A stretch of DNA of 64,000 nt from Burkholderiales bacterium. Lineage in GTDB: Bacteria; Pseudomonadota; Gammaproteobacteria; Burkholderiales; SG8-39. A model generated the notes under the pieces. It was not told the origin of the DNA and did no database searches. It was given only the letters and a program-made list of their open reading frames with translations. The translations under genes were made by a program, and so were the position numbers. Within the stretch, counting starts at the first letter, position 1. Every line of letters starts with the position of its first letter. Where the stretch lies: contig JAOAEA010000007.1 in NCBI GenBank assembly GCA_026417035.1, positions 20,058 through 84,057 on the forward strand, read 5' to 3'. Shown here in pieces: positions 34,465 to 38,908 of this stretch.

Positions 34465-37400
34465 CTAGCGCCGGAAGGTGATCTGCGGCAGCGCCCCGCT
34501 CACCGAGAAGCTCGCGCGCGACACGCCGCCCTGCGGCGACTTCATCTCCGCCGCGACCTTGCCGGTCACGGCCTTGCCGCCCTCGACGTCGAGCGCGCCC
34601 GACGCCGAGAGCACGCCGGCACCGAGGCGCAGGTTGCGCAGCGCGACCCGGCCCGCGTCGATCTGGCCCTGGCCGGAGAGCTCGTTGAAGGCGGTGCCGC
34701 CGTCCTTGCTCGCGCCAGTCTGGAGCATGCGGGCGAAATCGATGTTCGCGAGCTGGCCCTTCTGCACGGTGAAGTTGCCTTCGAGCCGCGCGCTGTCGAA
34801 GAGCTTTTCGGGCGCGGCGGCGCTCATCGCGAACGTGCCCTGCGCCAGCACCCGGCCGGCGCCGAAGAGCTGCGGCACGAGCACCGTCGCGTCCGCCTGC
34901 CGCAGGTCGGCATCGCCCTCGAGCGTCCAGCCGTTCGCCCAGCCGAGGCGGGCGCGGCCCCGCACCACGCCATCCCAGATCCGTCCGTCGAACTCGGTGA
35001 GCACGAGCTCGCCCGGCGCGACCTCGCCCTTGCCGCCGAAATCGGCGAGCACCAGAGAGGAGCCGAACGGAACGCGCAGCGACGCGACCGTGAGCTCGAT
35101 GGCGGCCCGGCCCGGACGCGGCTGGACGTCAGCCAGGATCTTTTTGTCGGGCGTGGCGAGCGTGAGCTTCTGCACCGCGCCGTTCGCCGCCAGCGTCGCC
35201 GTCGCCTCCAGCGTCGGCAGCTCGATGCCCGGGAGGGCGAGCTTCACATCGTGCGCGACGATGCGCTCGACCGCGAGGTCGGCGGAACCCGGCGGCTTCG
35301 CCCATAGAATCCCCCCCAGGCCCGCCGGCGAGACGGTGACGCCCGAGAGCTCGAGGGTCCTGAACGTGCGGGCCTCGCCGAACATCGTCCCGAGCTCCGG
35401 GTGCGCCTTCACCGACGCGATGCGCACCGCCTGGTCGGCGCCGACGACGACGTTCTCGAAGCGGACCGCGGGCGTCGGCAGGACCGAGAAGCCCGCGCTC
35501 TGGATCTTCACCGGCGCACCGAACTTGGCGCTCGCCAGCCGCTCGTAGAACGCGGTGTCGAGCGACAGGAACTGCAGCGCGACCGCCCCGGCGACGAGCG
35601 CGGCCACGAGGCCGATGCCGATGAACTTCCCGAGCCCGCTTCCGCCGCGCCGCCGCCCCGACGACACCGGCTCCGCGCGACGTGGGGACTCGGCCTCGGC
35701 GCGGGCTTCGGCTTCCGCCTGCTCGCGGGCGCGCTCTTCCTTGCGCGCACGCGCGGCCGCCTCGGCCTCGGCCTTCGCCCGCGCGCGCTCTTCCTCGCGC
35801 GCCTTGCGGTCCGCTTCGTGGCGCGCCTTTTCCTCGGCCTCGCGCCGCGCGCGCTCCTCGGCTTCCTGTCGTGCGCGCGCCTCGGCCTCGGCGTGGCGCT
35901 GCGCTTCGGCCTCCGCCCGCGCGCGCTCCTCGGCCTCGCGGCGGGCGCGATCGTCCGCCTCGCGCTTCGCACGCTCTGCCGCTTCGCGCTTCGCCCGCTC
36001 CCTCGCCTCGGCCTCGCGCCGGGATCGCTCCTCGGCCTCGCGCCGCGCGCTCTCCTCGGCCCGACGGCGCGCGCCCTCCTCTTCGGCGCGCTGCTTCGCC
36101 TCGGCCGCGGCGAGCTCCGCCGGGCTCGGGCCCTGCGAGGCCCGGTCGATCTCCGCCTGGAGCTCGCGCCGGATCCGTTCCTCGGACTCGCGCCGCTCGC
36201 GCTCCTCGGCCTCGCGCCGCGCCTTCTCCGCGGCTTCGCGCCGGGCCTTCTCCTCGGCCTCGAGCCGCGCGGTCTCCTCGGCAATGCGCCGGGCCTTCTC
36301 CTCGGCAGCGCGCCGGGCCTTCTCCTCGGCTTCGCGCCGCGCCCGTTCCTTCTCCTCGGCTTCGCGCCGCGCCTTTTCCTCGGCCTCCCGCCTGGCTCTT
36401 TCTTCGGCTTCGCGCCTGGCCCGCTCCTCGGCTTCGCGCTTCGCTCTCTCCTCGGCTTCGCGGCGCGCTCTTTCTTCGGCTTCGCGCTGGGCCTTCTCCT
36501 CGGCGATGCGCCGGGCTTTCTCTTCGGCCTCGCGCCGGGCTTTCTCTTCGGCCTCGCGCCGGGCTTTCTCCTCGGCTTCGCGCCGCGCCCTGGCCTCGGC
36601 GTCCTGGCGTTGCTTCTCCTCCGCCGCGCGCGCCTTCTCGGCCGCGTCGCGCCGGGCACGCTCCTCGGCCCGCCGGACTTCGTCCTCGAGCTCGCGGCGC
36701 AGCGCCTCTTCCTTCTCGCGCTTCGCGCGCTCCGCGGCCTCCGCCTGCGCGCGGGCCTCGGCCTCGCGCTTCGCTTTCTCCTCGGCTTCGCGCCGCGCCC
36801 GCTCGTCGGCTTCCCGCTTGGCCCTTTCTTCGGCTTCGCGCCTGGCCCGCTCCTCGGCTTCGCGCTTCGCTTTCTCCTCGGCTTCGCGCTTCGCTTTCTC
36901 CTCGGCTTCGCGCTTCGCCTTTTCCTCGGCTTGCTTGCGGGCGCGCTCCTCGGCCTCGAGGCGCTTGCGTTCCTCGGCCTCGCGCTTCGCCCTCTCTTCG
37001 GCCTCGCGCTTCGCCTTCGCGGCAGCTTCCGCCTTCGCCTTCGCTTCGGCCTTGGCCTTCGCCTCCGCTTCGGCCCGGGCCTTCGCTTCGGCCGCGGCCC
37101 GCGCCTTGGCTTCGGCCTCGGCCCGCGCCTTCGCTTCGGCCTGCTCGCGCTCGCGCGCGGCGGCGACCTGGCGCGCGACCTCTTCGACCTCGGCGGTGTC
37201 GGGCGTGCCTTTCCCGGGACCCGACTGGCTGATGATCGCGGTGAAATCGAGGTCCACGTCCTCCTGCACGCTCGGCAGCTGCGAGGGCGGCGAAACGCTC
37301 ACGGGCGCCGTGACGAACTCGCGCACGAAGCCTTCGCGCAGCAGGCGCGTCATCGCTTCGAGGAGCTTCGGCTCGGAGAACTTGTCGAGCTTCTGGTGGA

Positions 37401-37530
37401 CGTCGCCGACCGTGGCCTTGCCGTCGATCTGCGAGAGCACGTTGCGGATGTCGCGCGGGAGGAGGCTCGTCTTCCCGGTGACCTCCATGAGGCCCTTGGC
37501 AGTCTTCGTGAGTACCGTTCTTCTGTCCAT
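34465..37530 (-). CDS. Protein with N-terminal winged-helix-like domain, giant charged helix, membrane anchor and AsmA-like domain
   Basis: This 1021-residue protein has four parts. Residues 1-75 ([19 protein letters not shown]...[10 protein letters not shown]) form a small helical, winged-helix-like domain. Residues 122-613 are an E/K/R/A-rich, mostly 8-residue repeat (A-K/R-REAEE-K/R), with one Gly/Pro break near 463 (SQGPSP). It resembles a TolA-like or single-alpha-helix domain. A membrane segment ([20 protein letters not shown]) lies near 633-655. The last 366 residues resemble AsmA-family periplasmic domains. Predicted topology is N-in, C-out. I know no characterised protein with this layout. 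It is divergent from a c-di-GMP phosphodiesterase gene. Confidence 0.82.
35690..37165 (-). repeat. Internal coding repeat, 24-nt period, encoding A-[KR]-REAEE-[KR]
   Basis: The DNA encoding the charged helix is made of degenerate 24-base units (typically CTCCTCGGC-TTCGCGC-type on the plus strand) repeated dozens of times with occasional 16- or 18-base variants. The repeats create long open frames in the other five frames (724 aa and 1117 aa on the plus strand), which are artefacts. Such an array is prone to length change by recombination. Confidence 0.85.
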
Positions 37531-37729: not shown

Positions 37730-38908
37730 ATGGACATCCGCTCGCTCAGCCTGATGGTCGTCGAGGACCAGGCGGTGCAACGCCAGGTCGCCGTCGGCAT
37801 GTTGCGCAGCCTCGGCGTCTCCGCGATCCACGAGGCCGCCGATGGCTACCAGGCGCTCGACGCGCTGCGCGCGGCGCCCGAGTCGCCCGACGTGATCGTC
37901 TGCGACCTGCGGATGCCCGGGATGGACGGCATCGAGTTCATCCGCCACCTCGGCGAGTCCAAGTCGGCCTCGTCGATCATCCTCGCGAGCGCGCTGGACC
38001 CGACGCTTCTCTCCTCCGTCGAAGCGATGGCGCGCGCCCAGGGTCTCTCGGTGCTCGGAACGATCCCGAAGCCGCTCTCGCGCGACCGCCTCGGCGAGCT
38101 CCTGGGGCGCTTCGAGCGCCCGGACCTCCTCGGTCCCAACGCCGGGCAACCGCGGGCGAGCGCGAACGAGCTCGAGGAGGCGATCGCCGACGGGCAGATC
38201 GTCGCCTACTTCCAGCCGAAGCTGCACGTCGAGGACGGGACGATCGCGGGCGCCGAGGCGCTCGCGCGCTGGCACCATCCGCGGCGCGGCGTGGTCGGCC
38301 CGGGCGAATTCATCCCGCTCGCCGAGGAGTGCGGGCTCATCGACGCGCTCACCTGGGTGATGCTCGAGCAGTCGATGGACGAGCTGAACACCTGGCGGCG
38401 CGCCGGACAGGACTGGGCCGTGTCGGTGAACCTGTCGCTGCCCTATCTCGAATACAACGGCGCGGCCGACCGCATCGCGGGGCTCGCCGAGCGGCACGGC
38501 GTCGACCCGCGCCACGTCGTCCTGGAGATCACCGAGAGCCTCGCCTCGGCCAACCTCGCGCCGGTGCTCGGCAACGTCGCGCGGCTGCGCATGAAGGGCT
38601 TCGGCGTCGCGATCGACGACTACGGCACCGGCTACTCGTCGCTCAAGCAGCTCGCGTCGATCCCGTTCACCGAGCTCAAGGTGGACCAGACCTTCGTCCA
38701 CAACGCCAAGGGCAACCGGCAGCGCGAGGCGATCCTCGCCTCGAGCGTGGAGTTGGCGCGGCGGCTGCAGCTCGTGTCGGTGGCCGAGGGTGTCGAGACT
38801 CAGTCGGACCTGTCGGTTCTCGAAACGCTCGGCTGCGACCTGGTCCAGGGGTTCCTGTTCGCGCGGCCGATGGCGGCGCCCGACTTCGCGGCCTGGGCCG
38901 AGATCTGA
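37730..38908 (+). CDS. Response regulator with EAL domain (c-di-GMP phosphodiesterase)
   Basis: Residues 1-130 are a receiver domain with the acidic pair in MVVEDQ, phospho-acceptor in [13 protein letters not shown] and conserved lysine in GTIPKPLS. Residues 150-392 are an EAL domain with EALARWHHP, the metal-binding VNLSLPYLE and [24 protein letters not shown] and VAEGVET. All catalytic residues are there, so active hydrolysis of cyclic di-GMP is expected. No cognate histidine kinase lies next to it. It is divergent from the giant-helix/AsmA protein gene across a 199-bp shared region. Confidence 0.93.

Follow-up and report, generated by a model that had tools for sequence, protein, structure and literature searches.

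Predicted winged-helix head and charged stalk of variable length on an AsmA-like envelope protein of beta-proteobacteria

How phospholipids travel to the outer membrane is an open question in which AsmA-like proteins play a central part, and none of these is known to us to be regulated from, or to extend far into, the cytoplasm. The sequence considered here is a 64,000-nucleotide stretch of a Burkholderiales genome (contig JAOAEA010000007.1; hereafter the window). On its reverse strand, to which the coordinates below refer unless stated otherwise, it holds a complete gene (34465..37530) recognised from ORF reading, hydropathy and same-frame homologues, in which a head domain and a long charged helix precede a membrane segment and an AsmA-like domain. 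The frame opens at ATG and encodes 1021 residues without interruption, which we divide with high confidence into four parts: a winged-helix head of ~75 residues, a charged single-helix region, one transmembrane segment, and a beta-rich AsmA-like domain. Codon changes relative to a same-genus relative are commonest at the third position in the head, the helix and the C-terminal domain alike, which supports the reading frame.

Of 101 relatives searched as whole genomes, 68 contained the C-terminal domain and 62 the head, the two usually sharing one open frame, and extraction confirmed both ends within one ORF in 47 relatives of this first set. Overall, 92 distinct ORFs, a few of them cut off at contig ends or assembly breaks, carry the head and the AsmA domain in one frame, and essentially all belong to one beta-proteobacterial order. 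A preliminary description of the locus had left room for an N-terminal domain expressed apart from the rest; these homologues with the same domain order make separate expression unlikely. In a wider sample of the order, 111 of 250 genomes encoded the head, often within a frame 700-1500 residues long, and outside the order we found only short head proteins (frames of 144-337 residues in the clear cases) and head-less AsmA proteins. The layout is conserved across many beta-proteobacteria and, as far as could be found, is undescribed: the papers that could be searched for this domain order gave no account of it, in line with the preliminary statement that no characterised protein was known to be built this way. 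Named records with the gene are nearly all beta-proteobacterial metagenome-assembled genomes. Five metagenome records titled Bordetella parapertussis (L148, L149, L156, L174 and L212) sit amid uncultured beta-proteobacterial ones and are probably mislabelled. One genome (G027) has two copies (L085 and L110), and in both a frame break, due either to assembly error or to decay, separates the frame of the head from that of the AsmA domain.

The membrane anchor is the only strongly hydrophobic stretch, residues 636-657 (35560..35625; hydropathy 2.31, helical in the model), so the single membrane segment described earlier holds. The remainder, residues 658-1021 (34468..35559), is modelled by AlphaFold mostly as beta strands; the C-terminal model contains about 22 of them and one transmembrane helix at a mean pLDDT of 90.3. 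A Pfam search with the window protein alone matched no relevant family, and the AsmA assignment therefore needed the relatives. Among 45 of these, aligned over the whole domain, the C-terminal domain matched AsmA in 18 (best 1.8e-13), YhdP in 16, DUF748 in 11 and TamB in one. NCBIfam agrees with an AsmA-type assignment, and a sequence profile of the domain matched a TamB chain among solved structures (9xdc_B, E 0.0018). Foldseek returned no significant solved match for the beta domain (best TamB 9xdd, E 0.25, besides non-significant barrels and ushers), and it is on sequence profiles that the assignment is based. Profile matches in relatives, together with the confident model, support the earlier proposal of an AsmA-like periplasmic end.

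The predicted arrangement, with the transmembrane segment on the N-terminal side of an elongated, beta-rich periplasmic domain, is that of the AsmA superfamily (AsmA PF05170, YhdP PF13116, TamB PF04357, DUF748 PF05359). Members of this superfamily have been described with an N-terminal transmembrane segment and have, as far as is known, a short cytoplasmic N-terminus, whereas here a head and helix of ~630 residues precede the membrane. We file the protein as a variant within the AsmA superfamily rather than as a new kind of system. As the same genome also encodes TamB, YhdP and several further AsmA-family proteins, it is an extra, specialised paralogue. The C-terminal domain, at about 365 residues, is close in size to Pseudomonas aeruginosa PA2708 (361 aa), a protein considered not long enough to bridge the periplasm (PMC10900882), and the window domain is probably likewise too short to cross it alone.

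Immediately before the membrane is a basic segment, residues 616-635 (35626..35685), with a net charge of +4 in its last 15 residues. Across 48 proteins, the 15 residues before the transmembrane segment have a mean net charge of +4.3 compared to -0.7 for the 15 after it, and the flank before is the more positive in every case. Two relatives provide independent evidence: a class III nucleotidyl cyclase domain (Guanylate_cyc, PF00211; E 5e-7 and 4e-8, above the cut-off) lies within their linkers, after the charged helix in L092 and before it in L106. Because a cyclase needs cytoplasmic nucleotides, these insertions argue that the whole linker is cytoplasmic. The flanking charges and the cyclases uphold the earlier placement of the helix in the cytoplasm, and we predict with high confidence that the head and helix are cytoplasmic and the AsmA domain periplasmic. 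TolA offers the opposite arrangement, a periplasmic helix reaching to the outer membrane, and it too joins a single transmembrane segment to a long, mostly helical region (PMC12204202). The TolA helix, however, follows its membrane segment, whereas the charged helix here comes before it, and the window protein has neither a signal peptide nor a second strong transmembrane segment. A TolA-like topology would also put the AsmA domain in the cytoplasm, contrary to what is accepted for that family (PMC10900882). We regard it as extremely improbable and reject it on the positive-inside flank and the linker cyclases.

In the helix, from residue ~121 to 615, A, E, K, R and Q make up >=93% of most 40-residue blocks, and L, I, V, M, F, Y, W and C together account for only ~3% of the linker. 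Opposite charges at i,i+4 number 255, about 2.5 times the 99±8 found in shuffles. The protein repeats every eight residues (identity 0.59 at lag 8), and TRF places beneath it a 24-bp tandem DNA repeat of 48.6 copies coding for the octad (35831..37134, strand not given). A Pfam match of the full protein to Fibrinogen_BP (3.4e-5, below the cut-off) falls on this repeat and was discarded as compositional. The preliminary description envisaged a stable single helix of ~490 residues. A long charged helix is indeed present, at ~500 residues, but it is not one unbroken span: a GPSP break at residues 467-470 (36121..36132) divides it into a first part of ~355 residues (112-466; 36133..37197), assigned from composition and i,i+4 charges and modelled as helical up to residue 207, where the modelled piece ends, and a second of ~145 (471-615; 35686..36120), assigned from composition. 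Similarly, the length of about 70 nm given earlier is close to the contour, about 75 nm at 0.15 nm per residue, and is an upper bound only; we computed a root-mean-square reach of about 36-51 nm on an assumed persistence length of 10-25 nm.

Whether this region is a single helix at all is a separate matter, since a dimeric coiled coil, or a helix folded back near the membrane, would have a much shorter reach. The helical structure is predicted only, and sequences of this kind are commonly modelled by AlphaFold as long helices irrespective of their true state. Linker bodies also contain a median of about 2 Pro/Gly per 100 residues, which implies that the long linkers are not one unbroken helix. 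Scarce hydrophobics (~3% of the window linker, Ala not counted) and a period of 8 rather than 7 or 11, on the other hand, leave no hydrophobic stripe along the helix, and the i,i+4 spacing of opposite charges is that of the salt bridges in stable single helices (PMC5347031). We consequently regard a coiled coil or fold-back as improbable and prefer a single helix: the region is rich in E, K, R and A, with i,i+4 pairs above chance, few hydrophobics and no heptad. It shares the dense E/K/R/A content, the i,i+4 opposite charges and the near absence of hydrophobics with the SAH or ER-K domains of myosin and drebrin (PMC5347031, PMC4183817), and differs from them in its length of ~500 residues (up to ~1200 in relatives), its octad repeat and its attachment to a bacterial envelope protein.

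A helix of this kind had been suggested to act as a ruler or tether, and comparison of its length among relatives separates the two. As a molecular ruler it would hold some cytoplasmic structure at a single set distance from the membrane. Among homologues with the same two ends, however, the distance from head to membrane segment varies from 34 to 1201 residues. These distances form two groups, 272-1201 and 34-105 residues, with none between; nearly all members of the first show a strong i,i+4 pattern (z about 8-27) and the second has no such pattern. Seven complete forms are compact and helix-less (L242-L247 and L253), two others (L216 and L219) look like broken copies, and one genome (G089) holds both a long and a compact form. 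The compact forms imply that the stalk is dispensable for the core function in some lineages.

On a carefully built tree of the C-terminal domain, the helix-less L253 pairs with the long L105 as its sister (support 99/100), and within this well-supported pair the stalk was gained or lost. Tree tests rejected a single clade both for the long forms (p-AU 0.0009) and for the compact ones (p-AU 0.009). Some branches of the tree are long, so that the overall number of gains and losses is uncertain. Together with the spread of lengths, the scattering of long and compact forms on the tree suggests that the stalk lengthens, shortens or disappears while the ends stay, and the 24-bp DNA repeat offers an obvious route for such changes. 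Lengths do lie closer within genera than overall (SD of ln length 0.20 vs 0.37), as a ruler would have it, yet two same-genus pairs differ strongly (525 vs 319 and 501 vs 260), a comparison in which short-read assembly of repeats may have shortened some linkers. We regard a ruler as very improbable and reject it on the spread of linker lengths, to which the lack of a single clade of long forms adds; of the two earlier suggestions we prefer the tether.

What the tether would hold is best approached through the head, residues 1-75 (37306..37530), which AlphaFold models at a pLDDT of 92-97 across residues 1-70 with three helices (26-33, 41-47 and 53-66) and a terminal strand (69-72). The model, profile matches and the alignment point to a winged-helix or PqqD-like fold, and the earlier call of a small winged-helix-like domain at the far end of the helix agrees with this confident model. 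Pfam gave weak HTH_47/TrmB matches in a minority of relatives, and the head profile gave weak but consistent matches to PqqD and to winged-helix regulators of solved structure (E 0.0008-0.002). The likeness to PqqD and other RiPP-recognition or winged-helix domains is one of fold and profile; the window head, by contrast, has its own conserved KTxKG..E....L..D-G-K signature, falls outside any Pfam family, and had no RiPP or PQQ genes noticed near it. A GKTS in the head was considered as a P-loop and rejected, since its spacing is GxxxxxGKT and no head fits GxxxxGK[TS].

A winged helix could bind DNA or another polyanion, in which case the stalk would connect the chromosome with the AsmA domain and the inner membrane that anchors it, a link to the nucleoid that the preliminary description had suggested. 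In favour of such a nucleoid tether, besides the modelled fold, are the positive charge of the head (net +4 over its 75 residues, and usually +2 to +4 in relatives), its conserved basic residues (K9, K12, K20, R26, K38, K47, K50 and R70) and the DNA-binding regulators among the profile matches. The same profile matches PqqD too, however, and Foldseek lists the heterocyclases TruD/4v1v and GATOR1-complex chains, all of them non-significant by E; PqqD-like and GATOR1 winged helices are known as protein or peptide binders. Most positions of the putative recognition helix (53-66) vary among relatives, and the extra domains in relatives and neighbours are signalling domains. We consider a nucleoid tether rather unlikely.

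The segment between head and helix may point to a protein partner. Residues 76-111 (37198..37305) are probably disordered (pLDDT 52-62 for the blocks of 71-110), the usual setting for a docking motif, and contain a conserved DLDFT motif at residues 93-97 (37240..37254; D95, F96 and T97 in 96%, 91% and 88% of relatives). An LDF[T/S]-like motif occurs at this place in 74 of 83 long forms, compared to 0.02 expected from shuffles, and in one of nine others. The head also occurs apart from the AsmA domain, in small proteins of ~160-200 residues (L112-L116 and L123-L130, including G000:C166:43438-43707 in the window's own genome). These join the same head to a conserved C-terminal helical domain (..LGxDAxKIxxKLxxAPDSxxxL...CKKxVxLTIDExKA..), occur in the same genomes as the long gene and in others, and gave no Pfam match in the two searched. 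Three of them (L113, L114 and L116) adjoin two-component genes and an acetate-permease-like gene. L117 is a fusion in which a receiver domain follows a head-like domain and an LDFS motif, the domains being recognised by eye. Taken together, the motif in its disordered segment, the small head proteins beside two-component genes and the L117 fusion suggest docking on a cytoplasmic, perhaps signalling, partner.

Our favoured reading, which we hold tentatively and at somewhat under even odds, is that an AsmA-type periplasmic domain is carried on a length-tolerant stalk, a tether that presents a docking head to a cytoplasmic partner. The protein would be an inner-membrane member of the AsmA superfamily with a cytoplasmic antenna. 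Its periplasmic domain may form an open hydrophobic groove that handles lipid beside the inner membrane, as has been proposed for AsmA-like proteins, family membership being what suggests lipid handling here. The head and LDFT motif would dock on a soluble partner, for which a signalling protein or a scaffold is the likeliest candidate, and the single helix would serve as a stiff, length-tolerant stalk, a tether or spacer rather than a ruler, by which one molecule anchored in the membrane could contact a partner at a distance of tens of nanometres and which may also keep the two protein ends apart.

This widespread branch, with its cytoplasmic winged-helix head, conserved docking-type motif and, in two members, nucleotidyl cyclase, hints at possible cytoplasmic control over a periplasmic lipid-groove protein. 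A broader proposal, which we think quite unlikely, is a family of envelope-to-cytoplasm tethers in which the single helix, with a contour of tens to ~180 nm across the family, couples a lipid-handling AsmA domain, mechanically or spatially, either with the nucleoid or with some signalling complex far inside the cytoplasm; if true, envelope lipid traffic would respond to chromosome position or second messengers. With the same ends held apart by anything from 34 to about 1200 residues, and with one sister pair made up of a helix-less and a long form, nature has already set up an experiment on the role of long single helices in bacterial cells.

The surroundings of the gene vary, and no conserved operon was found among the 48 loci compared. 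purL lies downstream in 25 of the 48 and a hydantoinase gene upstream in 17; an operon with either was rejected, as these neighbours are shared inside a single family but missing from the rest of the order, and the association looks like an inherited neighbourhood. A divergent gene 200 bp away (37730-38908, forward strand) encodes, as read by eye, a response regulator with a C-terminal EAL-like domain; it was dismissed as a fixed partner, being found beside the gene in only three loci (the window, L061 and L064). A minority of the long forms, finally, have a second acidic-hydrophobic motif nearer the membrane end of the linker (L203, L161, L154 and L097; for example VKIEIDFDAV and VRIEVDFDAL).
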